From assembly GCF_900107605.1 (NCBI RefSeq), contig NZ_FNQJ01000020.1:1-64000 (forward strand): DNA of 64,000 nt, read 5' to 3'. Positions 1,893 through 41,121 of this stretch are shown here, one piece after another. This DNA comes from Acidovorax soli. GTDB taxonomy: Bacteria > Pseudomonadota > Gammaproteobacteria > Burkholderiales > Burkholderiaceae_C. A model generated the notes under the pieces. It was not told where the DNA came from and ran no database searches. It was given only the letters and a program-made list of their open reading frames with translations. The position numbers and the translations under genes are program-made. The number at the start of each line of letters is the position of its first letter. Within the stretch, counting starts at the first letter, position 1.

Positions 1893-1954
1893 TGTTGACG
1901 CCGACCGAAAACTGAGCCACTTTTTGGTGTGATGCCGACCTAAAACTGAGCCAG
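1893..1954. repeat. left terminal repeat of the IS21-family element
   Basis: Two tandem units, each containing GCCGACC(G/T)AAAACTGAGCCA, separated by about 12 bases. They match the units at 4461-4512 in inverted orientation. Confidence 0.85.
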
Positions 1955-2009
1955 GTGTTTTACCTACCCTGCTGTTTTGTGCAGCAAGGGAATGAAGAGG
2001 GTGATCACC

Positions 2010-3536
2010 ATGGACATGATTGGCAAGATACGGCGGATGCACCGCCGGGACAAGAAGACGAAGCGGGAGATATCGAGGGCCACGGGCCTGTCGCGCAACA
2101 CGGTGGCCAAGTGGCTGGACGAGGCGCAGCCGGTCGAGCCCAAGTACCGCCGGGAGGCGGCGAAGGCGACCAAGCTGTCGGCGCACGAGGCGGAGCTCAA
2201 GCAAGCCTTGAAGGCCGATGCCAAGCGGCCCAAGAAGGAGCGGCGCACGGCCAAGGCCTTGTTCACGCAGATCAAGGCAGCGGGCTACGAAGGTGGCTAC
2301 ACGCGGGTGACGGACTTCATCCGCAAGTGGCGCCAAGGTGAAGGCCAACAGGCGGCCTGCAAGGCCTTCGTGCCATTGACTTTCGAGCTTGGCGAGGCCT
2401 TCCAGTTCGACTGGAGCGAAGACGGCTTGCTGGTGGGCGGGGTGTACTACCGCATGCAGGTCTCGCACATGAAGCTGTGTGCCAGTGGGGCCTTCTGGCT
2501 GGTGGCCTACCCCAGCCAAGGCCACGAGATGCTGTTCGATGCGCACACCCGCAGCTTTGCAGCGCTGGGTGGCGTGGCACGCCGTGGCATCTACGACAAC
2601 ATGAAGACGGCGGTCGACAAAGTCAAGAAGGGCAAAGGCCGCGTGGTCAATGCGCGCTTTGCAGCCATGTGCGCGCACTATCTGTTCGACCCTGATTTTT
2701 GCAACCGTGCCAGCGGCTGGGAGAAGGGGCGCGTGGAGAAGGATGTGCAAGACAGCCGCCGTCGCATCTGGGTGGAGGCGGGGCAACGGCGCTTTGGCAG
2801 CTTTACCGAGCTCAATGCGTGGCTGGGCGAGCGCTGCCGGGCTCTGTGGCGAGAGCTGCGCCACCCGCAGCACAAAGCGTTCAGCATCGCCGAGATGCTG
2901 GAGCTGGAGCAAAGCCACCTGATGCCGATGCCGGTGGCCTTTGATGGCTATGTTGAGAACCCGGCCAAGGTGAGCAGCACCTGCCTGGTGACGGTGGCGC
3001 GCAACCGCTACTCGGTGCCCTGCGAATGGGCGGGGCAAATGGTCAGCACACACCTGTACCCGGCGCAGATCGTGGTGGTGGCCGGCGATGCTATGGTGGC
3101 CACGCACGAGCGCCTGAGCGATCGCAACCAGACCCGCTACGACTGGCAGCATTACGTGCCGCTGATCGAGCGCAAGCCGGGCGCGCTGCGCAACGGCGCG
3201 CCCTTTGCAGACCTGCCCGAGCCATTGCAGCGCATGCGCAAAGGCTTGCTGCACCAGGAGGGCGGCGACAGGGTGATGGCGCAGGTACTGGCCGAGGTGC
3301 CCAAGCAAGGGCTGGACGCCGTGCTGGTGGCGGTGGAGTTGGCCCTGGAGAGTGCGCCGCCATCGGGGCGGGTGAGCACCGAGCACGTCATCAACGTGCT
3401 CGGCCGCCTGCAAGCGCAGCCCCTGCCCGAGACGGTTGCGACCAACCTGCAAGTGAGCCAGACACCCCTGGCCGACACGGCGCGCTATGACAGCCTGCGC
3501 GCTGGCAGCGACATGCAGGAGGCCGATCATGCGTGA
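2010..3536 (+). CDS. istA: IS21-family transposase IstA
   Basis: IstA is the DDE transposase that cuts and joins the element's ends. The 508-residue product opens with a helix-turn-helix ([20 protein letters not shown]), followed by an rve-type catalytic core beginning around FQFDWSED, which carries the first catalytic Asp. A basic C-terminal region follows. ATG 2010 is preferred because AGAGGG lies 8 bases upstream; TTG 1977 and ATG 1992 are in-frame alternatives. The stop overlaps the istB start, so the two are probably translationally coupled. Confidence 0.92.
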
Positions 3537-4314
3537 GCTGGACAAGGAGTTCAAAGAGCTGCGCCTGTACGGCATGGCCGGGGCCTGGGAGGACCTGGTC
3601 AAGCAAGGCGGCCACGCCACGCTGGAGAGCTCGCGCTGGCTGCTGGAGCACCTGCTGCAAGCGGAAGTCACGGACAGGGCCATGCGCTCAGTGAGCTACC
3701 AGATGCACACGGCGAAGTTCCCCGTGCACCGCGACCTGGCGGGCTTCGACTTCGAATGCTCGCCCGTGGACAAAAAGCTCATCGAGCAGTTGGCCAGCAT
3801 GGCGTTCACCGAGCAGGCGCACAACGTGGTGCTAGTGGGTGGCCCCGGCACGGGCAAGACGCATCTGGCCACGGCCATCGGCGTGGCGGGCATCACGCGC
3901 CATGGCTCACGCGTGCGGTTTTACTCCACGGTGGACCTGGTCAACGCACTGGAGCAGGAGAAGGCCCAAGGCAAGGCAGGCCGCATCGCAGCGAGCTTGC
4001 AGCGCATGGACCTGGTCATCCTTGATGAGCTGGGCTACCTGCCCTTCAGCCAGGCAGGCGGCGCCTTGCTGTTCCACCTGCTGAGCAAGCTCTACGAGCA
4101 GACCAGCGTGATGATCACCACCAACCTGGACTTCAAGGAATGGTCCAGCGTGTTCGGCGATGCCAAGATGACCACGGCACTGCTGGATCGACTCACGCAC
4201 CACTGCCACATCGTCGAGACGGGCAACGAGTCCCACAGGTTCATGCACAGCACAGCCGTGGCCAAGAAACGCATCAAGGCACGCGAACAGGCCAAGAAGG
4301 CTGAGCCGTTCTGA
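3529..4314 (+). CDS. istB: IS21-family helper ATPase IstB
   Basis: IstB is the AAA+ ATPase that helps IstA choose targets. The 261-residue product has a Walker A motif GGPGTGKTH near residue 104 and a Walker B segment [12 protein letters not shown], as in DnaC-like IstB proteins. It starts at ATG 3529 inside the last codons of istA. Length and motifs are complete, so the protein is probably active. Confidence 0.93.
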
Positions 4315-4460
4315 GCGGTTCAAGGGCAAGCCGCTACGGGCTTCGCCCTGCGCGGCTTGCCCTCAACGGACGACCACCGAGCTCGATCACCAAGGAGACC
4401 AAAACCGACCCAAGGCACTACACTTATCCACAGCCGACCTTCACAGGTTGGCCATTAGCC

Positions 4461-4512
4461 CTGGCTCAAAATTCAATCGGCACGGTGGCTCAATTTTGAA
4501 TCGGCGCCAACA
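4461..4512. repeat. right terminal repeat of the IS21-family element
   Basis: Two inverted units (GGCTCAAAATTCAATCGG and GGCTCAATTTTGAATCGGCG) mirror the left end and finish in CAACA, the complement of the left TGTTG. Confidence 0.85.
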
Positions 4513-5597: not shown

Positions 5598-6944
5598 ATG
5601 CGTATCCTTCACCTGTCTGACATCCATTTCCGAGAGCCTGATTGCCTAGAGCCGGCGACTGATACGGACCGCCCATATCGGACGGTCCTTGAGCAAGACA
5701 TCGTCGATTTGTGCCGCGATGGTAAGCACGTCGACGCAATTCTCGTAGGCGGCGACATCGCTTACAAGGCTCACCCGGACGAATACAAAGCGGCGCAGGA
5801 GTGGTTGGAAGCGCTCGCCGCGAAGTGTCATTGCCCGCGCGAGAGCATCTACGTTGTTCCCGGGAACCATGACGTAGACCAGAAGGTCTGTCAGAAGGCC
5901 CTCGCGGTCTCCAACGCTCAGGAGGCGATTGTTCGAGCGCCGGACGCGAATCGCTCGCGAGTCCTGCGCGAACAACTTCGTGATGTAGAGGTCGGGCGCT
6001 CGCTGTTCCTCCCCCTTGAGGCTTATAACAACTTTGCGGCTTCGTTCAATTGCAACGTATACCCCTCCAGGCCCTACTGGTTTGACACGCTCGAACTCTC
6101 GGCGGGCTTGAAATTGCGCCTTTTCGGACTGACTTCGACGCTACTCTCCGGCCTTGGCAAGCGGGACGACGAACCCGGTCATCTTTACCTAAGTCCTTTG
6201 CAAACGGTCTTCGAGAAGGACCGGGACATCGTAAACCTAGTGATTTGCCACCACCCACCACACTGGTTCGTCGACGTTACGCAAGTAGACGACGACGTTA
6301 ACTCCCGGACGAAGCTGCAGTTCTTCGGCCATGAGCATACGCAGCGTTGCACACGCGACCCGGCCTACACGCGATTCAAGGCAGGCGCGGTCAACCCTGA
6401 TAAGAGAGAGCTCGGCTGGCGACCTGGGTATAACCTCGTAGACCTCGACGTCATCGACACTGGCGCGGCCCGCACCTTGCGCGTAACGGCGCATGTGCGG
6501 CAATGGCAGAACGCGCCCGAGATGTTTATCCCGGTCAAGGACCCGCTCGGCAATAACGTTTGGGTGAACAACATGGCTGCGCCTGAACATTTCCCCCTGA
6601 GCGCCCCGCCTTCTGTCGCAACGATACCGGAGCCGCACCTTCCGCACACCAAGATTGCAGAAGCCGCGCACACAACCGCTGACCTCGCTGCGAATACCGT
6701 GGCGAAGCTGGAGGCAACTATGAGTACTCCATCAACCCGAAATCTAATCTATCGGTTCTGGAATCATCTGGATGTCAGCGACCGACGAGATATTGCACTG
6801 AAGCTGGGGCTTATTACTCAAGAAGACCTCGCAGCCAAGGTGCCCGATTCCGAGCGCTACGGCAAAGCGCTTGAACTGGCAGGCAGCCGTGGTCTGTTGA
6901 TGGACCTTGCACGAGAAGTCGAAGCCATTGAGCAAAAGCAATAG
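5598..6944 (+). CDS. calcineurin-like metallophosphoesterase with C-terminal adaptor-like domain
   Basis: First gene of the five-gene GTPase operon. Residues 1-300 form a metallophosphoesterase with all the metal-binding motifs: D8-x-H10, GD at 52-53, GNHD at 89-92, HH at 218-219 and GHEH at 244-247. Such enzymes cleave phosphodiesters in nucleotides or nucleic acids. A Pro/Ala-rich linker (about 330-375) leads to a small helical domain (about 378-445) resembling the effector- or GTPase-associated adaptor domains that tether effectors to NTPase sensors. The coupling suggests this is the effector or signalling arm, switched by the GTPases downstream. Function in this system is inferred; the phosphoesterase fold is clear. 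There is no signal peptide, so it should be cytoplasmic. No strong ribosome-binding site precedes the ATG. Confidence 0.85.
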   Translation: MRILHLSDIHFREPDCLEPATDTDRPYRTVLEQDIVDLCRDGKHVDAILVGGDIAYKAHPDEYKAAQEWLEALAAKCHCPRESIYVVPGNHDVDQKVCQKALAVSNAQEAIVRAPDANRSRVLREQLRDVEVGRSLFLPLEAYNNFAASFNCNVYPSRPYWFDTLELSAGLKLRLFGLTSTLLSGLGKRDDEPGHLYLSPLQTVFEKDRDIVNLVICHHPPHWFVDVTQVDDDVNSRTKLQFFGHEHTQRCTRDPAYTRFKAGAVNPDKRELGWRPGYNLVDLDVIDTGAARTLRVTAHVRQWQNAPEMFIPVKDPLGNNVWVNNMAAPEHFPLSAPPSVATIPEPHLPHTKIAEAAHTTADLAANTVAKLEATMSTPSTRNLIYRFWNHLDVSDRRDIALKLGLITQEDLAAKVPDSERYGKALELAGSRGLLMDLAREVEAIEQKQ

Positions 6945-6967
6945 TCAACATACAGGGGGAGAAGAAA

Positions 6968-8026
6968 TTGCAAGCAAATTTCGCCACGTGGTACAGCAGT
7001 ATGCAGCTCGGCACTGATGCAGACATCCAGCTAGTACGCTGGAGTCAGGTCCAAGCGGTTGCGAAAGGTCCCTCTTCTACGGAGCTGACAAGCCTTGTAA
7101 GCCTGGCCTTCAAGTTGAAACAGTCGGAAGCCAGCAAGACGGCGATTCGGAGTAAATTTTCCAACGACGCGCCGGCGCCCGGTGACGCTGAACTTGCCAT
7201 GTTGGCGGCGTCATCGCTCGCTGTCGCCTTTCAGGGCCGGAACGCGACCGCTGCGAAGGCCGCGGCCCTGGTTGTGGCGACGACCGCCGCTGGTCAGCGC
7301 GCCCCTGAGTTGCCAGTACCCTTGGTCGGGATGGCTGAACAAGCGCTTTCGGACCTTGCTGAGACTACCCGCCAACGGCCGCAGCCGTTGTTGAATAAAA
7401 CCGCGCCGGTTGTGAACGTCAAGGCTGCACTCGAAGCGAACCCTGATTTCGATCAGTCAAATGTTCACGCTGTCTTCAATTCGATGGCGCAGGAGCTAAA
7501 CAAAGCCCTACAAGACGTCGTGAGCCGCCAGAAGTTGTTTGAAGCTGCGGTACAGGGTTACATCAAGGTGCAAGACGAGGAGCTGGACGTCTTGTGGTGG
7601 CTCCACGGTGGCTATAGTGAGCTTGCCAATCTCCCGTTTGGCGAGGTGTCCTCGGCTCAAAGGCCGCTCGTGCTCGCCGCAGAACTGAGCGAGTTGGCGA
7701 CGGTACTGCCGGGCCCTCCATCCCTCGCTGCGCTGCTTACGCGTGCAGGTGTAGAAAGCAGCGCAATGGTATCGGTAGAGGTGGCAGTCAACGCTTTGCC
7801 ACTCTCACTGTTGCATACGCTCCTGCCGGAATCGGACCATCCCAAAGTCTCGCCTGCTACCACGCCTATCCTCGAAGCGGTACGTCGCCGGCTAGAAATT
7901 GACGGCCAAGACGGCTGGACCGTGGGCTGGGATTCCGTGACTGGCCTTGCTCACAAGCAAGAGCTGTCGGCGCTGAAGTTCGCCCAGAGCGCGTTCCTCG
8001 AGCTTTTGCTCGTCCGACTGGGGTGA
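6968..8026 (+). CDS. GASH-like all-helical protein of the GTPase system
   Basis: A 352-residue, Ala/Leu/Glu-rich protein with no membrane segments, predicted almost wholly helical. The segment DVLWWLHGGYSELANLPFGE (about residues 199-218) and the following helices resemble the GTPase-associated system helical (GASH) proteins that accompany double-GTPase operons. It probably acts as a structural or regulatory partner. The start is taken as TTG 6968 because GGGGGAGAAG lies just upstream and the gap to the preceding gene is only 23 bases; ATG 7001 is an alternative. It overlaps the next gene. The family assignment comes from remembered motif resemblance plus context. Confidence 0.65.
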   Translation: MQANFATWYSSMQLGTDADIQLVRWSQVQAVAKGPSSTELTSLVSLAFKLKQSEASKTAIRSKFSNDAPAPGDAELAMLAASSLAVAFQGRNATAAKAAALVVATTAAGQRAPELPVPLVGMAEQALSDLAETTRQRPQPLLNKTAPVVNVKAALEANPDFDQSNVHAVFNSMAQELNKALQDVVSRQKLFEAAVQGYIKVQDEELDVLWWLHGGYSELANLPFGEVSSAQRPLVLAAELSELATVLPGPPSLAALLTRAGVESSAMVSVEVAVNALPLSLLHTLLPESDHPKVSPATTPILEAVRRRLEIDGQDGWTVGWDSVTGLAHKQELSALKFAQSAFLELLLVRLG

Positions 8027-9075
8027 CCGCAATGGCAGTCGACGGCAACACAAATCCTGTAGTGCGATGCGGCAACCCTGAATGCAATGTCGCGATTGAT
8101 TCGAAGTGCATGGAGGGCATCGCAGACCCGCCCAGCTGCCCACACTACGGCAAGGCTCTTGTCGTTGTCGAGGCATCCGACGGCGAAGCAATCAAGGCCG
8201 TTGCACCGGGCGTCCGCCTGCCGCACGCTGACGCGCTTTCCGCGACAGAAGCGGAATTGGTTCTTCGCGCGAAGGACAGCAACCTGGTCGCGCTGGTGGG
8301 CCCGCATGACGCGGGTAAAACGAGCCTCATCGCTGCGGTCTACGAGTTGTTCCAGTTGGGGCCTATCGGTCAATACCAATTCGGGGGGTCGGCCACCCTG
8401 CACGCTTTCGAGAAAACGGCCCACGATGCTCGAAGCGAGTCGCGCCGCAACGATCCGCATACAGAGCGAACGAAGCTCGGTGAACTCACCTTCTACCATC
8501 TGGACTTGGTAAGTGCCGACGGTCCTCCACGCCGCTGCGCTCTGTTTGCCAACAGAGCAGGCGAGGACTACATGGATACGCAGACGAACCAGGACCTGGC
8601 AAAAGGCTATCCCGAGCTTCCGCGCTCAGACACTCTGACTGTGCTTGTCGATGGTGAGAAGCTTCTCCTGAGCGCCGAGCGCCACCTGGCGCGTCGAGAC
8701 GCATTGCTCACTTTGCGCGCGCTTGTCGAAGCAGGCGTTACAAGGCGATGGCAACGGCTGGCATTGGTGCTTACGAAGGTTGATGCCGTTCGGTCGGCCG
8801 AGAAGGGAGCGCCCGAAGCCCTCCAGTTCTTCGAGAACCTTGCTACAAGCATGAGCACCGAGTACGGTTCCCACTTTGTCGAGTTCAAGACGTTTCCGGT
8901 GGCCGCGTCACCAAAGTCGACCAAGGCCGTTCGCGGTGAAGGTGTGGCTGCATTGCTCGACTTCTGGCTGAAGGCACCAGCCCGCAATGAGCACGCCACG
9001 ACCGTTCCGACCCCGCGCCCCGCAGCACGGGCGTTCGGGCGCCTTCGGGTCATTGAGAGCGAGGTTATGCCATGA
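8023..9075 (+). CDS. TRAFAC-type GTPase with N-terminal cysteine cluster (double-GTPase 2-like)
   Basis: The 350-residue protein starts with a possible zinc-binding module (C16, C21, C29, C39) and then a P-loop GTPase: Walker A GPHDAGKTS at 93-101, a switch-II-like NRAGED near 177 and a base-specificity motif TKVD at 251-254. It fits the GTPase family that occurs in pairs in conflict operons. The GTG start at 8023 overlaps the preceding stop (GTGA); ATG 8032 is possible. Its stop overlaps the next gene by ATGA. Co-translation suggests a stoichiometric complex with the neighbouring GTPase. It probably acts as a molecular switch sensing invasion, which is inference. Confidence 0.8.
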   Translation: MTAMAVDGNTNPVVRCGNPECNVAIDSKCMEGIADPPSCPHYGKALVVVEASDGEAIKAVAPGVRLPHADALSATEAELVLRAKDSNLVALVGPHDAGKTSLIAAVYELFQLGPIGQYQFGGSATLHAFEKTAHDARSESRRNDPHTERTKLGELTFYHLDLVSADGPPRRCALFANRAGEDYMDTQTNQDLAKGYPELPRSDTLTVLVDGEKLLLSAERHLARRDALLTLRALVEAGVTRRWQRLALVLTKVDAVRSAEKGAPEALQFFENLATSMSTEYGSHFVEFKTFPVAASPKSTKAVRGEGVAALLDFWLKAPARNEHATTVPTPRPAARAFGRLRVIESEVMP

Positions 9076-9929
9076 ACAGGCAAGACGTCGTCGTGCTAGG
9101 CTTGCCAAGCAGCGGAAAGACCACCTACCTCGCCGCACTGCGGCATCTCATGACCGCCAACGAAGTGGACGTGGAGCTCAGGCTCGTCCACCTACGCGGT
9201 GAGGGGACCGAGCACCTGCATTTGCTCGTAGACCGTTGGTTGCGCGCAAAGGCGCAGGAACGAACCACTGAGGTCAAGAGCCGCACGGTGACGATGACCC
9301 TTCGGGAGAAAACCGGCGCGGAGTTCGAACTGCACTTCCCGGACATGGCGGGTGAGTCGTTCCAGCGCATGTGGGAGAAGCGAGAGTGCGATCCTTCGGT
9401 CGCGGCGCAGCTCCGTAGCCGCGGCGTTCTCCTCTTCGTTCATGCAAACAAGTACAAGGCCCCTACATGGGTTGTAGATGAAGTCCAGCAGAACAAGGCG
9501 CTAGGCATCGCTCCTGAACCGGAACAACCAGTCCCTTGGAAGCCAGAACACTCGGCCACGCAGGTCCAGCTTGTAGACCTTCTGCAGTCTCTCCAGTCAG
9601 CTCCCTTGGACGCCGGTCCGCGGCGCCTTGCCATAGTGCTCTCGGCGTGGGACAAGGCCGCCGCTGAAGGCCATGCGCCTGTAACGTATTTGGACCGCCA
9701 CTTCCCGTTCCTGCGGCAATATCTTGAGAATGGCCTTGGCGAAGGCTGGACGTGGACGGTGTTCGGCGTCAGCGCCCAGGGCGGCGAGTACGACGAGGAC
9801 GACAAGCCGCCTCGGGAAGAGGCGCAGCGCATGCGGGATGTGGACATTCCCTCGCAGCGAATCAAGGTTGTGACTGAGGGCGCAGAGTCCCATGACCTAA
9901 CTGAGCCCCTCACTTGGCTGTTGGGATAG
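9072..9929 (+). CDS. TRAFAC-type GTPase (double-GTPase 1-like)
   Basis: A 285-residue P-loop protein with Walker A GLPSSGKTT at 10-18, switch-II DMAGE at 91-95 and an atypical specificity motif SAWDK at 191-195 in place of NKxD. It has no other recognisable domain. It begins inside the stop of the previous GTPase gene (ATGA), the arrangement that gives these pairs their double-GTPase name. The altered specificity motif leaves the nucleotide preference open. It most likely works with its neighbour as a paired switch controlling the phosphoesterase and the GAP1-like protein. Confidence 0.82.
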   Translation: MNRQDVVVLGLPSSGKTTYLAALRHLMTANEVDVELRLVHLRGEGTEHLHLLVDRWLRAKAQERTTEVKSRTVTMTLREKTGAEFELHFPDMAGESFQRMWEKRECDPSVAAQLRSRGVLLFVHANKYKAPTWVVDEVQQNKALGIAPEPEQPVPWKPEHSATQVQLVDLLQSLQSAPLDAGPRRLAIVLSAWDKAAAEGHAPVTYLDRHFPFLRQYLENGLGEGWTWTVFGVSAQGGEYDEDDKPPREEAQRMRDVDIPSQRIKVVTEGAESHDLTEPLTWLLG

Positions 9930-9937
9930 GGTTGGTA

Positions 9938-12004
9938 GTGGGTACAACCGTTCATCAGGCGTTGCATGGCTATTCCGATGGCCATCGTCAACTGGCTTGC
10001 TCAGCCGCTTTGTCGCCGAAGGACGCGCGCCTGGTCCTCGTCATGAGCGACGTGTCGGGCTCCGGCGTGACCGGCGAGGGCATCCCGTACATCACGGGCT
10101 ACCCGCTCGCGGAGTCGGGCCTCTACGCGCTGGCGAAGACATGGCCCGCGACCGAGCTTCCCAGGCCAGGTTCTGTCTGGACGCACACCATCTTTGTCGA
10201 GTTCGCCGAGCTTGCAACTCTTGACCGTCCGTCCAGCCTAGCCAAACTGTTCCGCCGTCCTTCCATGGAGCAGCGATTCGGCTATGACAACGCGCTGCTA
10301 CTTGGTAACGACCCTCTATGTTCGGAGATGTTGAGCGATGAAGAGCTGTTCTGGTTTGGACGCCTCGCCACAGGACTCTACGGACTCCCCGACGAGCCGA
10401 TTTGGGCTCGACGTGACCCTGATTTCTATGTCGACGAAGTAGTGCTTCGGATATGGGACCAACAATGGCCCCGCCTGCGGCGCTCCTTCAAGTTCTGTAC
10501 GCTCACGACCACCGACCGTTCTCAGGACGGATTTGCCTTCGACCTCCAGCTCTGTCCCAGTTCGGCGGCGACATCTCGCCTTCGATTCCAGGGGCGCTTC
10601 GAAGGGTGGGAAGCGGTAACCTCCAGTGACGAGGCTTGGATGCGAGGGCTACTTGCCGATGTTTGGCACCCCGAACGATCAGAGATACGACAAGCCCTGC
10701 GTCTGATAGGCACGGACGTACTCGGCGGGCGCGCAGCCATGCGCCCCATTTGCGAGCTTCTGGTGTCCCAGTCAGCCTCGATTCAGATGGACGTCAACCA
10801 GATTGTTGATTTGGTCAACGAACCTGGGCTTCTGGCGACGTCCAAGCTGGCCAAGATGTTTGCGCTTAGGACCGTGTTGCCTAGATCCGAGCACCTGAGC
10901 GACGAATCGTTGCGCTTCGTGGCAAAGAACATTGACTTCCTGCCTTCCGAGGAGCTCGAGGAATTTGCGCCGCCTTTCTCTGAGCGGCTCTGGGCGACTA
11001 ACCCGGTCATGCTCGCCAGCCTTTGGCTTGATGATCGGCCTTCAGTTCAAATTCCTCTGCGCCACGCAGCCCAAGGCATCATCGCCGCCGAGCTTCTGGA
11101 TGGACTTTCGGCCGCTCCTGACCTCGTCCACCCACTTCTAACGGTCAGACCCGACCTGGCGGAGCTTCCCGAGTTTTGGGGGCGTACTCAGTGTTGGCCA
11201 AAGGTTGTCGCAAACATCGGGATCGACCTCACGAGTCACGCAGTTCTTGATGCACTGGTCCTCGGGCTACATGATGAAGGGGCAATGACCTCTGCACTGC
11301 ATGAGGTCGGTACGCTTGCCGTCTTGAAATGCATCCAGACCCTGGATCAGCAGCCTCAGGTCAGCCAGAACCTCGATGCTTGGGTGCGACATGCATGCTC
11401 CGACACGGACGCCGTGGCGAAATTCCTTGCGCAGTCGACGGCGTCAAGCGCCGGCACCATTTACCTCGTCTCGCAGCAGCTCCAGCCGGACGCTGTGCCC
11501 AATGACTTTGGCGACGACCCCTGGCTCATCGCATTGCGCTCGTACTCCAAATCTAGGAGGAAGCTTCCTGTTGAGTTGCTAGCCTACGGGTTCCGCAGGG
11601 GCATGGGCTGGCGCTCTAGGAGTGTGGCAGAGCTTCTTAGCATCACCTTTGAAGCACTGCATCGGGCTGCGGAGCAGGACAGCATCCCGGAGACAAGTTG
11701 GAGCATGCTTGAGAACGCGCTGCCTTCGGTGAGAAGCGACTTCTCTTGGGATCGCGCTCTAAGGCTCAGGAAGGCCGCAGCCAAGCGCGCAACGGACATG
11801 CGGTTCAGCGCTGAAGACTTCCTTGGTCTTGCTGAGTCGGAGGTTCTGTTCGGGGCACTTCTCGAGGAAGTTTGGCAGTTGTGGGACGGGTCATGGTTCC
11901 TGAAATCTATGGCCAAGGAGAGGGGACGCGGCAACACCCCGACTGCCCACAAATGTCATCAGCTTCTAATCGATTTCGTCGAACGGAAATCCCACTGGTG
12001 GTGA
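9938..12004 (+). CDS. GTPase-associated protein 1 (GAP1)-like large protein
   Basis: Last and largest gene of the operon, 688 residues. The N terminus carries HQALHGYSDGHRQLA, which resembles the signature of the GAP1 N-terminal domain in GTPase-centred conflict operons. A largely helical middle and C-terminal region follows. No catalytic motif is visible; in such systems the protein is thought to be a scaffold or sensor partner of the GTPases. GTG 9938 is chosen as start, 8 bases after the previous stop; TTG 9914 and 9932 are in frame. It has no membrane segments. The name comes from the N-terminal motif and the neighbours. Confidence 0.75.
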   Translation: MGTTVHQALHGYSDGHRQLACSAALSPKDARLVLVMSDVSGSGVTGEGIPYITGYPLAESGLYALAKTWPATELPRPGSVWTHTIFVEFAELATLDRPSSLAKLFRRPSMEQRFGYDNALLLGNDPLCSEMLSDEELFWFGRLATGLYGLPDEPIWARRDPDFYVDEVVLRIWDQQWPRLRRSFKFCTLTTTDRSQDGFAFDLQLCPSSAATSRLRFQGRFEGWEAVTSSDEAWMRGLLADVWHPERSEIRQALRLIGTDVLGGRAAMRPICELLVSQSASIQMDVNQIVDLVNEPGLLATSKLAKMFALRTVLPRSEHLSDESLRFVAKNIDFLPSEELEEFAPPFSERLWATNPVMLASLWLDDRPSVQIPLRHAAQGIIAAELLDGLSAAPDLVHPLLTVRPDLAELPEFWGRTQCWPKVVANIGIDLTSHAVLDALVLGLHDEGAMTSALHEVGTLAVLKCIQTLDQQPQVSQNLDAWVRHACSDTDAVAKFLAQSTASSAGTIYLVSQQLQPDAVPNDFGDDPWLIALRSYSKSRRKLPVELLAYGFRRGMGWRSRSVAELLSITFEALHRAAEQDSIPETSWSMLENALPSVRSDFSWDRALRLRKAAAKRATDMRFSAEDFLGLAESEVLFGALLEEVWQLWDGSWFLKSMAKERGRGNTPTAHKCHQLLIDFVERKSHWW

Positions 12005-12455: not shown

Positions 12456-12495
12456 ATTAAATATTGTAGAGTCTTAAAAATTATTGTAATTCACA
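12456..12495 (-). mobile_element. putative island terminus inside comM (Tn7-like end)
   Basis: Where comM stops matching, the minus strand begins TGTGAATTACAATAA. A second TACAATA copy follows, spaced exactly 20 bases from the first (ATTGTA at 12483 and 12463 on the plus strand). Ends starting TGT with regularly spaced short repeats are typical of Tn7-like heteromeric transposons, and comM is a known target of that group (for example AbaR/Tn6022-type islands). No transposase gene of this type is in the window, so the assignment is inferred. Confidence 0.45.
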
Positions 12496-13387
12496 AACCC
12501 CCACCCACCAGTGCCACCGCCGATGCCGTGTGGTGCGGCTGGCAGGTGGGTCGCTGCGCCCAGCGCGCGGGGGTGAAGCGCCCGGCCAGGCTGGCCACGG
12601 CGGCGCTCTCCAGGGCCTCTTCCATGGTCATGGCCGGCAGCAGCCCGGCAAAGCGCTGGGCCAGCATGGATTTGCCGGATCCGGGCGGCCCCATCATCAG
12701 CAGGCTGTGCCCGCCAGCGGCCGCGATCTCCAGTGCGCGCTTGGAGGCCGCCTGGCCCTTGATGTCCGAAAGATCGGCATAGGCCACCTGCGTGGCCAGC
12801 GGCGCGGGTTGCAGCAGACACCAGCCGTCGTCCGGGGCGCTGGCGTCGTCCATGGATTCCTGGCTGCCTGCCGGCAGGAACTGCCGCACGACATCGAGCA
12901 GATGCCGGGCGCGGTACACCTGTGCGTCGGGTACCAGGGCGGCCTCTTCGGCACTGCCGGGCGGCAGCACCAGCCGCACCGCCACGCCGTGGGCCCGCAG
13001 TGCCAGGCTCGTGGCCAGCGCGCCGCGCACGGGGCGCAATTGCCCGGACAGCGACAGCTCCCCGGCGAATTCATGGCCGGCCAGGCGGCCCGCGTCGATC
13101 TGCCCGCTGGCGGCCAGGATGCCCAGGGCAATGGGCAGGTCGAAGCGGCCCGAATCCTTGGGCAGATCGGCGGGCGCCAGATTGACCGTGATGCGCTTGT
13201 TGTGGGGGAACTCCAGCCCTGCGTTCTGCAGTGCCGAGCGCACCCGCTCGCGCGCTTCCTTCACTTCCAGATCGGCCAGGCCGACCAGGGTGAAGCTGGG
13301 AAGCCCGTTGGCCAGATGCACCTCGACGGTGACGGAGGGCGCTTCCAGCCCCAGGAGCGCGCGACTTTGCACCAATGCAAGACTCAT
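12491..13387 (-). pseudogene. comM: comM (YifB/Mg-chelatase-like AAA+ helicase), 3' half removed by island insertion
   Basis: ComM is a hexameric helicase that promotes branch migration during natural transformation. The gene starts at ATG 13387 with GGGGAG upstream and encodes the N-terminal Lon-like domain and the Walker A motif GPPGSGKS. After SAVALVGGG it runs into foreign DNA and a stop, giving 298 residues instead of about 505. Walker B, sensor and C-terminal regions are lost. The missing part presumably lies on the far side of the island, left of the window. Transformation is expected to be impaired unless the island excises. Confidence 0.92.
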
Positions 13388-13448
13388 GAACGGTTTTCTC
13401 CCCAGATGGGTGCGGTGGGTGGAGGGTTGTTGTCTGCTGGCGGCGTTG

Positions 13449-13465
13449 CGCACCAAGGGGGTGCA
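13449..13465 (+). promoter_or_regulatory. NtrC-binding site
   Basis: CGCACC-AAGGG-GGTGCA matches the NtrC consensus TGCACC-N5-GGTGCA with one mismatch. It lies about 95 bases upstream of a sigma-54 promoter, a typical enhancer distance, ahead of torF-glnK-amtB. Confidence 0.7.
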
Positions 13466-13543
13466 ACGGTGCGGCGCCACTGCCAATGTAAGGGCGAATG
13501 CACGCCGTGGGTGCGGACCTTGTCGCCATGGAGATCCGCAACA

Positions 13544-13559
13544 TGGCACGGACCGTGCT
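13544..13559 (+). promoter_or_regulatory. sigma-54 promoter for torF-glnK-amtB
   Basis: TGGCAC-GGACC-GTGCT has GG and GC elements at the exact -24/-12 spacing. It ends 40 bases before the torF start. With the NtrC site it explains nitrogen control of glnK-amtB. Confidence 0.75.
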
Positions 13560-13599
13560 TTGCACAACTGTCCCCACTCTTCATTACACCGGAGGAACC

Positions 13600-14711
<1,112 letters not shown>

Positions 14712-38583: not shown

Positions 38584-39858
38584 ATGGAACCACAGGCCAC
38601 CGCCCACCCCGCACCAACGCCCTGGGCTGACCGGCCCCTTGTCGTGGCGCTGGCGGGCATGCTGGCGCTGGCCGTGGCCATGGGCGTGGGGCGCTTTGCG
38701 TTCACACCGCTGCTGCCCATGATGCTGCACGACGGCGTGCTCACGCTCGCCGAGGGCAGCTGGCTGGCCACGGCCAATTACGTGGGCTACCTGGTGGGCG
38801 CCCTGGCCTGCATGGCACTGCCCTGGCTGGCGCCCGGGTTCTACGCCCGCTGGCACCCGGCACGGCTGGCGCGCGCGGGGCTGGTGGCCACGGTGCTGCT
38901 CACGCTGGCCATGGCGCTGCCGATACCCGCCAGCTGGCCGGCGCTGCGTTGGGTGGCGGGGGCGGCCAGCGCCGTGGTGCTGCTCAACGTGGCGGCCTGG
39001 TGCATGGTGCGCCTGGCGGCGCTGGGCCGGCCGGCCATGGGCGGGCTGATCTTCTGCGGGCCGGGCGTGGGCATCGTGCTCACGGGGCTGGCGGCCAGCG
39101 CCATGGTGGCCGGGCAGTGGCGGGCGGCTTCGGGCTGGGTGGTGTTCGGCGGGCTGTCGGTGCTGCTGTGCGTGGGGGTCTGGCCCGTGGTGCGGGGTCG
39201 GGCGGCCCAGGTCCGGGCCACGGACCCTGCAAAGGGGGCGCCGCCGGCTGCGGCGCGGGCGCAGGGCGCCGGTACGGCGGTGGCGCGGGCCGTGCATGCG
39301 CTGGCCTATGGCCTGGCGGGGCTGGGTTACATCGTCACCGCCACCTTTCTGCCCGTCATCGCGCGCGCCGCGCTGCCGCCGGGTTCACCCTGGCCGGACC
39401 TTTTCTGGCCGGTGTTCGGTGCCGGCGTGGCGATGGGCGCGGCGCTGAGCACGCGGGCGCCCCCGGCCTGGGACCGGCGCTGGCTGCTGCTGGCCGCCTA
39501 TGCGCTGCAGGCGCTGGGCATTGCGCTGGGGCTGGCCTGGCCCACGCCCGCCGGTTTTGCGCTCAGCAGCCTGTGCGTGGGCCTGCCGTTCACGGCCATC
39601 ACCTTCTATGGCCTGCAGGAGGCGCGGCGCCTGTGGCCGGCTTCGGCCGACAGTTTTGCCAGCCTGGTGACGGCCGTCTACGGCCTGGGCCAGATCGCCG
39701 GGCCGCCCCTGGTGGCCTGGCTGATTGCGCAGGGCGATCCGGGCCGGGGCTTTGCGCGCGGCCTGGCGCTGGCGGCGGCCGCGCTGGTGGCCGGGGCGGT
39801 GATGTACGGGCTGTCGGCCTGGCGTTGGCCACTGCCGCCGCACCGCAGGGCGCGCTGA
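38584..39858 (+). CDS. YbfB/YjiJ-family MFS transporter
   Basis: A 424-residue inner-membrane protein with about 12 helices. The first helix region MGVGRFAFTPLLPMM is the hallmark of the YbfB/YjiJ family. The substrate is unknown. Its stop (TGA) directly abuts the stop of the convergent sensor kinase gene without a spare base. Confidence 0.9.
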   Translation: MEPQATAHPAPTPWADRPLVVALAGMLALAVAMGVGRFAFTPLLPMMLHDGVLTLAEGSWLATANYVGYLVGALACMALPWLAPGFYARWHPARLARAGLVATVLLTLAMALPIPASWPALRWVAGAASAVVLLNVAAWCMVRLAALGRPAMGGLIFCGPGVGIVLTGLAASAMVAGQWRAASGWVVFGGLSVLLCVGVWPVVRGRAAQVRATDPAKGAPPAAARAQGAGTAVARAVHALAYGLAGLGYIVTATFLPVIARAALPPGSPWPDLFWPVFGAGVAMGAALSTRAPPAWDRRWLLLAAYALQALGIALGLAWPTPAGFALSSLCVGLPFTAITFYGLQEARRLWPASADSFASLVTAVYGLGQIAGPPLVAWLIAQGDPGRGFARGLALAAAALVAGAVMYGLSAWRWPLPPHRRAR

Positions 39859-41121
39859 TCAGTGCGGAGCGGGTGCCGTGGTGGCTGTGGGTGAGGCAGG
39901 TGCCAGCGGCAAGGACAGCACAAAACATGCGCCACTGGCGCCGTCGGGTCGATCATCGCACCGCACCGAGCCGTTGTGCCGCTCGGCAATCGAGCGCACC
40001 AGGGCCAGCCCCAGGCCCACGCCGCCGGCACGTTCGCTGGCACCCGGCAGGCGGTAGAAGGGCTCGAAGATGCGTTCGCGCAAGGCGGGGGGAACGCCAG
40101 GCCCCTGGTCGAGCACGCTCAAGCGCGCCTGGCCGTTGTGCCGCTGCACCACCGCCGTGATGGTGCCCTGGCTGTAGCGGCGTGCGTTTTCCAGCAGATT
40201 GCGCAGCGCGCGGCGCAGCAGCTTGGCCACGCCGCGCACTTGCAGCGCATCGGCGCTGGCGCTGACATCCAGGTCGGCACCGACCCGGGCGCATTCCTCG
40301 GCGGCCAGTCCGATCAGGTCCACCAGCTCCACCGTGCCCACATCGGCCTCGCGCGCGTCCAGCCGGCTGGACAACAGGATTTCGTCGACCAGCTGGTCGA
40401 GCTCGGCGATGTTGCGCAGGATTTCTTCGCGGAACGCGGGTGAGGGCTGCTGTCCGCCCATCAGCTCCAGGCCCATGCGGATGCGCGTGAGCGGCGAGCG
40501 CAGCTCGTGCGAGGCATTGGCCAGCAGCGACTTGTGGGTCTTGACCAGGGCCTCGATGCGGGCGGCGGCGGCATTGAACTGGCGCGCCAGGTGGGCCACC
40601 TCGTCCTGCCCCTGCTCGGGCACGCGCACCGACAGGTCGCCCTCGCCAAAGCGCTGCACGCTGCGCTGCAGGGTCTCCAGCCGCTGCAGCAGGCGGCGGA
40701 TGATGGGAAACACCCCCACGGCCACGGCCAGGCCCACCAGGCCCAGCATCCACAGGAAGCCGAAGGGGGGCCGGGTCCAGAAGGCGGCGTCGGCGCGGCG
40801 GTTGGGCCCGGGGTGATTGCCCCGGTCGCCGCGCGGTGCCAGCTGCAGGCTGTAGGTGCTGCCGTCGGCGCTGTCAATGCTCAGCTCCAGCCCCTCGCCC
40901 GGCGGTCCGGGCACGCGCGTGGCGAGCCCGGCGACCAGCGTGTGGCCCTCGCTGTCGCGCAGCACCACTTCGCGGGCGGGCGGCGCCATGGGTTGTGCGT
41001 TCTGCTCGGCGGCAATGCGCCAGGCCCAGCCCACGGCCAGGGTGAGCACGGCCACGCCGCCGACCACGGCCAGCCAGATGCGCAGGTACAGGCGGCGCGA
41101 AAAAAGATCAAACACCGCCAT
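39859..41121 (-). CDS. two-component sensor histidine kinase
   Basis: A 420-residue membrane kinase with an N-terminal helix (about 13-35), a short periplasmic region, a second helix (about 117-140), a HAMP-like linker, a HisKA domain with phospho-acceptor His205 (NASHELRSPLTR), and a HATPase_c domain (NLLENARRYS, DQGPGVP, GGVGLGLAL). It is the partner of the OmpR-type regulator encoded 161 bases upstream. The signal is unknown; the small sensory loop resembles RstB/CpxA-type kinases. Confidence 0.93.
   Translation of the reverse strand: MAVFDLFSRRLYLRIWLAVVGGVAVLTLAVGWAWRIAAEQNAQPMAPPAREVVLRDSEGHTLVAGLATRVPGPPGEGLELSIDSADGSTYSLQLAPRGDRGNHPGPNRRADAAFWTRPPFGFLWMLGLVGLAVAVGVFPIIRRLLQRLETLQRSVQRFGEGDLSVRVPEQGQDEVAHLARQFNAAAARIEALVKTHKSLLANASHELRSPLTRIRMGLELMGGQQPSPAFREEILRNIAELDQLVDEILLSSRLDAREADVGTVELVDLIGLAAEECARVGADLDVSASADALQVRGVAKLLRRALRNLLENARRYSQGTITAVVQRHNGQARLSVLDQGPGVPPALRERIFEPFYRLPGASERAGGVGLGLALVRSIAERHNGSVRCDDRPDGASGACFVLSLPLAPASPTATTAPAPH

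Follow-up and report, generated by a model that had tools for sequence, protein, structure and literature searches.

The locus studied here raises the question of what a compact, GTPase-centred operon at the end of a mobile island does for Acidovorax soli and for the DNA that carries it. The window is the whole 64,000-nt stretch that was analyzed (contig NZ_FNQJ01000020.1, positions 1 to 64,000). An earlier note on this DNA, written from the sequence, had described five tightly packed genes at 5598 to 12004 and had matched them to a class of double-GTPase/GAP1/GASH conflict systems predicted by the Aravind group.

The operon encodes a GAP1-N1-type protein set

The five open reading frames were all confirmed as a close-set group on the plus strand, and each protein scored above its Pfam gathering score, which bore out the reading of every gene in the earlier note, from the phosphoesterase with an adaptor-like tail to the GAP1-like protein:

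5598–6944, plus strand: effector, calcineurin-type metallophosphoesterase (residues 1–248; PF00149, 51.8 bits) with a C-terminal GTPase-associated adaptor domain, GAAD (residues 379–442, about 6732–6923; PF19976, 52.5 bits)
6968–8026, plus strand: GASH, all-helical protein, TTG start (PF19994, 65.4 bits, cut-off 27)
8023–9075, plus strand: DO-GTPase2 with an N-terminal Cys4 zinc-ribbon-like segment (C16, C21, C29, C39; PF19993, 189.5 bits)
9072–9929, plus strand: DO-GTPase1 (PF19975, 238.3 bits)
9938–12004, plus strand: GAP1, with a GAP1-N1 domain, a middle alpha/beta region and a C-terminal alpha-solenoid, GTG start (PF20012, 99.2 bits, or 99.1 bits with the longer start)

With the GTG at 9938 taken as the GAP1 start, the genes are spaced by +23, −4, −4 and +8 bases; a start at the TTG at 9914 would give a 16-base overlap with the DO-GTPase1 gene. 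The GTG is favored because the homologues are 688 amino acids long. The GC content of the operon is 59.5%, as compared to 67.1% in positions 12501–64000 of the window.

The motif residues for catalysis and nucleotide binding that are kept among relatives are all retained in the window proteins. In the phosphoesterase, residues D8, H10, D53, N90, H91, H218, H219, H245 and H247 were common to all 29 aligned phosphoesterase-type homologues, the window protein included. This protein did not reach the NCBIfam cut-offs for the anti-phage proteins DS8 (70.3 bits versus 790) or DS9 (66.8 bits versus 420), and it matched the PADLOC model PDC-S60 in part (E 2.5e-16); because the matches to these defence models are only partial, it does not belong to PDC-S60 or DS8. 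In DO-GTPase2 the four cysteines were unchanged in 14/14 aligned sequences, and its P-loop G98-K99 and D254 were kept in 37/37 loci, as were the P-loop G15-K16, D91-xx-G94-E95 and D194 of DO-GTPase1. The profiles of the two GTPases are related to each other (hhalign probability 98.8%). The Pfam match of GASH spans only profile positions 198–398 of 398, which is the C-terminal half, and its AF2 model (pLDDT 89.9) is helical almost throughout. In the PADLOC scan GASH and GAP1 had no match and the GTPases had only weak P-loop-type matches, and a search of the operon's core proteins for a homotypic GAAD partner found none.

The class named in the earlier note corresponds to the GAP1-N1 system of Kaur, Burroughs, Iyer and Aravind (eLife 2020; PMC7159879). 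In the sections of that paper drawn on here, the set is described as a DO-GTPase pair, GAP1-N1, GASH and an effector joined to GAAD, one GTPase carries an N-terminal zinc ribbon, the phosphoesterase is the commonest effector, and activity against invaders is a prediction. The window operon shares with their GTPase-centric subsystem 1 all five components, the single zinc-ribbon DO-GTPase, the GAAD adaptor, the occurrence of GASH with GAP1-N1 only, and the calcineurin-type phosphoesterase that is the usual effector there; as far as those sections go, no essential difference was found. Judged by its protein families, the operon is a complete GAP1-N1-type set and a further member of the predicted class. 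The earlier note had also thought the class little characterized, and a search of the open-access literature found no experiments on GAP1-N1 GTPase-centric systems.

A constant core with exchanged effectors

Forty related loci were examined, of which 37 were distinct after removal of duplicates (L050 is the same as L034, L065 the same as L039, and L080 is much like L059). DO-GTPase1 is present in all 37 by construction, since every locus was recruited through it, and DO-GTPase2 and GAP1 accompany it in 37/37. The front slot held a GAAD-type effector gene in 31 loci: 29 phosphoesterase-GAAD homologues, most of them called with an HMM that was built up from the window's own protein, one alpha/beta-hydrolase-GAAD (L058) and one phosphorylase-GAAD (L055). 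The effector in the other six carried EAD1 (four caspases and two phosphorylases). The GAP1 protein also ends in EAD1, above the Pfam cut-off in L031, L032, L041 and L044, below it in L084, and by alignment in L037. These EAD1-type systems share GASH, the GTPase pair and the GAP1 core with the window operon; they differ in the effector and in its joining via EAD1, a domain unrelated to GAAD by profile (hhalign probability 0.1%). A search for GASH in L054 found none, and GASH is interrupted in L081.

The loci found by tblastn or alignment are skewed to the window's own operon type; in other genomes, the Pfam model found 14 operons, nine of the phosphoesterase type and five of the EAD1 type. Open reading frames were called by a simple routine that picks the longest ORF and sometimes favors antisense frames in this GC-rich DNA. 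Swappable enzymes on an unvarying core are what one would expect of effector modules.

A Tn7-like transposon in comM carries the operon

The earlier note had placed the operon between IS elements and the end of an island inserted in comM. The island end proved real, being the right end of a Tn6022-like transposon of the Tn7 family, which adjoins the operon, while the IS elements are only neighbors on its left:

171–611: IS3-type fragment
1977–4314: IS21-like istA/istB
12470–12495, minus strand: right terminal inverted repeat of the transposon, which agrees with the left end (L089 2202–2227, G000:C86) at 22/26 positions
12496–12500, no strand: 5-bp target-site duplication, read from the window letters (AACCC on the plus strand, GGGTT on the comM strand) and repeated at the left junction
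12491–13612, minus strand: 5′ part of the interrupted comM, the transposon target, ORF extent (PF13541/PF01078)

A 5-bp target duplication is a hallmark of Tn7. The 3′ part of comM lies on another contig of the same genome (G000:C86:237543-238202), and joining of the two flanks gave one uninterrupted ComM frame. The transposon was read at its two ends, each on its own contig. TnsA (PF08722, 61.1 bits), TnsB (PF09299, 26.9 bits), TnsC (PF05621, 185.4 bits) and TniQ (PF06527, 49.2 bits) scored above the Pfam cut-offs. A 532-amino-acid ORF with no Pfam match was assigned to TnsF by position only, and an opposite-strand 578-amino-acid ORF in the TnsE position, scanned on a 190-amino-acid part, gave 17.9 bits for TnsE_C versus a cut-off of 26.7. 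In TnsA, TnsB, TnsC and TniQ, and by position also in the candidate TnsF gene and the opposite-strand candidate TnsE ORF, the element resembles the Tn6022-like transposons of comM described by Faure et al. (2023; PMC10293859), and it is inserted about 14 codons ahead of the VLFLDE segment of comM; the present carrier differs in its cargo, the GTPase system. A second operon, L044, is adjoined by TnsA/TnsB homologues. IS21 genes were also seen within the stretches around the plasmid-borne relatives L080 and L083.

Distribution and neighborhood of the relatives

With the Pfam model, matches above the cut-off were obtained in 12 of 299 genomes of the family and 4 of 398 of the phylum, the own genome counted, and the 14 control genomes gave no such match; weak matches below the cut-off occurred in five more family and five more phylum genomes. 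Relatives were present on 19 plasmid records, 13 of them conjugative; 14 of the 19 were viewed, and the remaining five resembled these by match statistics. No match was found in 50,697 phage records, and none of the 61 candidate stretches from viral contigs contained a relative. The relatives are rare and patchy in their distribution.

One copy of the operon is adjoined by the RADAR genes rdrAB, and others have a BsuBI/PstI restriction system or Abi and TrlF as neighbors. A PADLOC scan (E ≤ 1e-15) of 128 ORFs that flank 12 loci (L033 and L036, on short contigs, not included) gave matches to 66 families, among which the 25 listed include type I restriction, AbiEi, PDC-S53, PDC-M11, PDC-S22 and mad5. 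In 12 control regions of the same genomes, 177 ORFs (two long ones of 179 were omitted) matched 11 families (mad2, mad3, type II and Dru/DISARM-type methyltransferases, and PycTIR), so that the controls were not empty, and families are not genes, as one gene can match several models. In several relatives' neighborhoods no named defence gene was seen. The Tn7-like cargo position in comM, the 13/19 conjugative plasmid records and the RADAR genes beside one copy fit a role in conflict better than one in housekeeping.

Possible function of the operon

We consider it likely, with a probability of roughly two in three, that this GAP1-N1 double-GTPase operon on a Tn7-like transposon is an anti-phage alarm, in which a GAP1-regulated GTPase pair switches on the phosphoesterase. 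DO-GTPase1 and the zinc-ribbon DO-GTPase2 would form a heterodimeric GTP switch, and GAP1 would bind the pair and set its nucleotide state, with R76, unchanged in 37/37 GAP1 proteins, as a candidate catalytic, arginine-finger-like residue. An infection product might be sensed by the GAP1 solenoid, by GASH or by both, and the altered GTP state would release or assemble the GAAD-tethered phosphoesterase. The enzyme could then cut nucleic acid or a nucleotide and halt phage growth, probably to the detriment of the infected cell, while the transposon would spread the module and gain from a protected host.

The plasmid records, the Tn7-like carrier, the transposase homologues by L044 and the null results in phage records and viral contigs could also be explained if the module guards its carrier against competing plasmids and transposons, not phages. 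The element breaks comM and could restrict transformation by other mobile elements, as proposed in the portions of Faure et al. (PMC10293859) used here. We consider this explanation unlikely, though not negligible: mobility is compatible with both readings, RADAR, which adjoins one copy, is annotated as antiviral, and Tn7-like cargo is enriched in defence genes according to the parts of Benler et al. consulted (PMC8649781).

The effector gene lies beside the core in 37/37 distinct loci, and toxin–antitoxin genes occur near some copies, which would suit an addiction module, with the GAAD-phosphoesterase as a toxin restrained by the GTPase–GAP1–GASH core and stabilizing plasmids or transposons. 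The antitoxin would then consist of four proteins, two of them GTPases, encoded in 5 kb, and we know of no toxin–antitoxin pair that approaches this size; the swapping of enzyme classes on one core also favors a regulated output, and this explanation appears improbable. Still harder to credit is a housekeeping or stress-signaling complex that rides on mobile DNA. A bacterial GTPase and its regulator, MglA/MglB, are described as also serving cell polarity, but the sparse distribution, low GC content, mobile carriers and exchanged effectors speak against such a role.

GAP1 and eukaryotic GTPase regulators

The AF2 model of GAP1 is confident (pLDDT 86.8), and it gave weak matches to DENND1A/B, which belong to the longin-DENN GTPase regulators together with FLCN-FNIP2 and C9orf72-SMCR8. 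For 66 and 21 GAP1 members, the listed Pfam matches (E ≤ 10) included no DENN, longin, folliculin or FNIP model; the HMMER filters discard most matches weaker than E 0.1. None of the terms DENN, longin, roadblock and folliculin appears in the main text of Kaur et al. (PMC7159879). The kinship is only a lead, suggested by a predicted model and not backed by sequence profiles. It is possible, but doubtful, that GAP1 is a bacterial DENN-type regulator. It would then consist of a longin domain, an alpha/beta domain resembling DENN and a tail of helices, and would hold on to a Rag-like pair of GTPases and trigger the pair through the invariant R76.

What is new here is the defined carrier transposon (22/26 inverted ends, GGGTT), the constant core with swapping of effector and adaptor over 37 loci, the plasmid spread of relatives, the RADAR adjacency, and the weak GAP1–DENN matches together with the invariant R76. 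The class predicted in 2020 gains a complete representative whose carrier transposon is defined, identified relatives that can be taken into the laboratory, and a short list of residues for mutation: the P-loops, GAP1 R76 and the phosphoesterase ligands. The DENN survey of 2012, in the part used here, places many homologues of the DENN module in the ancestral eukaryote (PMC3521125). If GAP1 is longin-DENN-like, this module would get a bacterial comparison, and bacterial conflict systems would be connected with proteins that regulate GTPases of eukaryotic membranes. The FLCN/SMCR8 logic, in which paired GTPases are acted on by a longin-DENN protein, would then gain a bacterial immune counterpart carried by transposons and plasmids.

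The GAP1-N1 operon and its proteins

The five window ORFs at 5598-12004 on the + strand follow one another with spacings of +23, −4, −4 and +8 bases, given a GAP1 start at 9938, in agreement with the overlaps and tiny gaps described in the earlier note. All five proteins exceeded the Pfam cut-offs when checked against the GTPase-associated families, which bore out the proposed phosphoesterase with an adaptor-like tail (Metallophos and GAAD), GASH-like protein (GASH), two distinct GTPases (DO-GTPase2 and DO-GTPase1) and GAP1-like protein (GAP1-N1). The phosphoesterase residues D8, H10, D53, N90, H91, H218, H219, H245 and H247, which we take to be the metal ligands of calcineurin-type enzymes, are common to 29/29 aligned phosphoesterase-type homologues, and the lone deviating member of the 30-protein alignment set, L058, is a different enzyme. 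Both DO-GTPases contain a P-loop and a D-x-x-G-E or G-E segment.

As described by Kaur et al. 2020 (PMC7159879), GAP1-N1 GTPase-centric systems combine GAP1-N1, GASH and two DO-GTPases, one of which carries a zinc ribbon, with an effector that is most commonly a calcineurin-type phosphoesterase and often has GAAD. All the sequence features of the set outlined there were found in the window operon, and the assignment to the double-GTPase/GAP1/GASH systems was correct. An anti-invader function is a prediction in that paper too. The view that this class has little or no experimental characterization agrees with our search of the open-access literature by family names (most subscription papers lie outside it), which yielded Kaur et al. 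2020 and no experiment on GAP1-N1 or double-GTPase systems; in the text available, PMC11237479 names DO-GTPase once, and the alignment-method paper PMC8998981 names double-GTPase once.

A constant core with exchanged effectors

Each window protein was expanded into an HMM, and the operon partners were sought with these models in 37 distinct loci (40 examined minus three duplicates), every one recruited by DO-GTPase1. The data showed that DO-GTPase2 and GAP1 adjoin DO-GTPase1 in 37/37 loci; window-type GASH was detected in 30/37, as was a phosphoesterase-GAAD homologue. One of these 30 homologues, on an Acetobacter plasmid (L058:4684-5871), is an alpha/beta-hydrolase fused to GAAD, and a Flavobacterium locus (L055:244-1389) has a phosphorylase-family enzyme with GAAD in the effector slot; in both, another effector has naturally taken the place of the phosphoesterase. 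The adaptor EAD1 is used in six loci (L031, L032, L037, L041, L044 and L084), with four caspase-EAD1 and two phosphorylase-EAD1 effectors. Across the five EAD1 loci whose GAP1 was scanned, it ends in EAD1 over the cut-off in L031, L032, L041 and L044, and below it in L084. The GASH proteins of L031, L037, L041 and L084 match Pfam GASH though missed by the window HMM; GASH was not found in L054, and in L081:3407-15894 (Aliivibrio salmonicida plasmid pVSAL840) an IS30 element interrupts the GASH gene.

Profile comparison indicated that GAAD and EAD1 are unrelated, and the core proteins compared contained no GAAD relative, so that GAAD looks like a heterotypic adaptor. Docking of GAAD on GAP1 was predicted by Kaur et al. 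(PMC7159879). GASH could be considered an equally open docking candidate, because GAAD effectors directly precede GASH; this gene-order argument is weakened by L084, where an EAD1 effector likewise precedes GASH.

A Tn6022-like carrier inserted in comM

The 5′ part of comM ends at window position 12496, and the 3′ part lies at G000:C86:237543-238202, on another contig of the same genome. The junctions bear the inverted ends TGTGAATTACAATAATTTTTAAGACT and TGTCGATTACAATAATTTATGAGACT (22/26 identical), with the target GGGTT duplicated at both; with the flanks joined, ComM reads without interruption. At the left junction GC drops from ~0.71 to 0.56. The break lies ~14 codons ahead of the VLFLDE segment, which is probably the Walker B of ComM; the TnsF target is the Walker B region, according to Faure et al. 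(PMC10293859). Near the left end, genes with TnsA, Mu-type transposase (TnsB), TniB (TnsC) and TniQ domains scored over the cut-off and are followed by a 532-aa ORF without a match, while an opposite-strand 578-aa ORF matched TnsE_C below the cut-off. According to Faure et al. 2023 (PMC10293859), Tn6022 has this gene set, with TnsF, an opposite-strand tnsE and a comM insertion; the window carrier is alike in its TnsA, TnsB, TnsC and TniQ genes and its comM site. On this evidence the comM-inserted island end of the earlier note belongs to a Tn6022-like transposon, whose right end it is; the transposon was identified from the sequence of its two ends on two contigs, and the operon is cargo at the right end. 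Enrichment of Tn7-like cargo in defence genes is reported by Benler et al. 2021 (PMC8649781), whose main text lacks the words GTPase and phosphoesterase.

In another genome of the same genus (G689:C1:505883-536193; loci L072, L077, L086 and L087) comM is split by ~29 kb at a different codon, hence comM has been struck at least twice within the genus. In a distant genome, an EAD1-type operon is preceded by homologues of TnsA (34% identity) and TnsB (29%) at L044:3093-5157, which suggests that systems of this class have another Tn7-like carrier.

Other features of the window were as follows.
178-1774, stretch flanked by 25-nt inverted repeats (92%), containing an IS3-type HTH_21/rve fragment
804-1772 (−), 322-aa ORF inside that stretch, no Pfam match
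1896-4482, IS21-like element (istA 1977-3536, istB 3487-4314) whose terminal repeats resemble TGACGCCGACCGAAAACTGAGCCA (direct copies at 1896 and 1930, an inverted one near 4460); IS21 genes also occur in the stretches inspected around two relatives on plasmids, L080 and L083
36001-37000, GC skew 0.22, AT skew −0.31
39001-40000, GC 75%, AT skew −0.34

Distribution and defence neighbourhood

The DO-GTPase1 Pfam model matched over the cut-off in 12/299 host-family genomes and 4/398 phylum genomes (own genome counted in both), with weak matches alone, below the cut-off, in five more genomes of each set, and in 0/14 control genomes. Among 72,556 plasmid records 19 matched, some near-identical to one another, and 13 of these are conjugative; none of 50,697 phage records matched, and 61 candidate stretches of viral contigs yielded no relative. 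Named relatives include Limnohabitans, Herbaspirillum, Polaromonas, Sphingobium, Afipia, Chloroflexi, Flavobacterium and Nocardioides, and a Simplicispira plasmid also bears one.

ORFs of 120 aa or more flanking 12 loci, and ORFs of 12 control stretches from the same genomes, were scanned with PADLOC (E ≤ 1e-15). The 128 case ORFs matched 66 PADLOC families, and 177 of 179 control ORFs (two omitted for length) matched 10 + 1; these counts give direction only, because families rather than genes were counted. The 25 case families listed included type I restriction subunits, AbiEi, PDC-S53, PDC-M11A/B, PDC-S22 and mad5, while the control matches were mad2 (two ORFs), mad3, type II and Dru/DISARM-type methyltransferases, and PycTIR. 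By annotation, RADAR rdrAB lies directly downstream of the operon on pVSAL840 (L081), and other plasmid copies neighbour a BsuBI/PstI restriction system, Abi with TrlF, a TIR-domain protein and a DUF4231 protein, or a patatin with a nucleotidyltransferase; some further copies had no named defence neighbour.

Proposed mechanism

Overall, the operon is read, with about two chances in three, as a GTP-switched effector system. The data establish the parts list with its intact motifs, the modular exchange of effectors and the mobile carrier, whereas we infer what concerns sensing, control by GTP, the substrate and the fate of the cell. The GTPase pair would form the switch and GAP1 would regulate it, GASH and the GAP1 solenoid would likely serve in sensing and as scaffold, and the output would come from the GAAD-phosphoesterase; a DENN-like GAP1 is a candidate and our boldest idea. 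The observation is confirmed, and the window operon adds a further member to an already described class of systems that is experimentally open.
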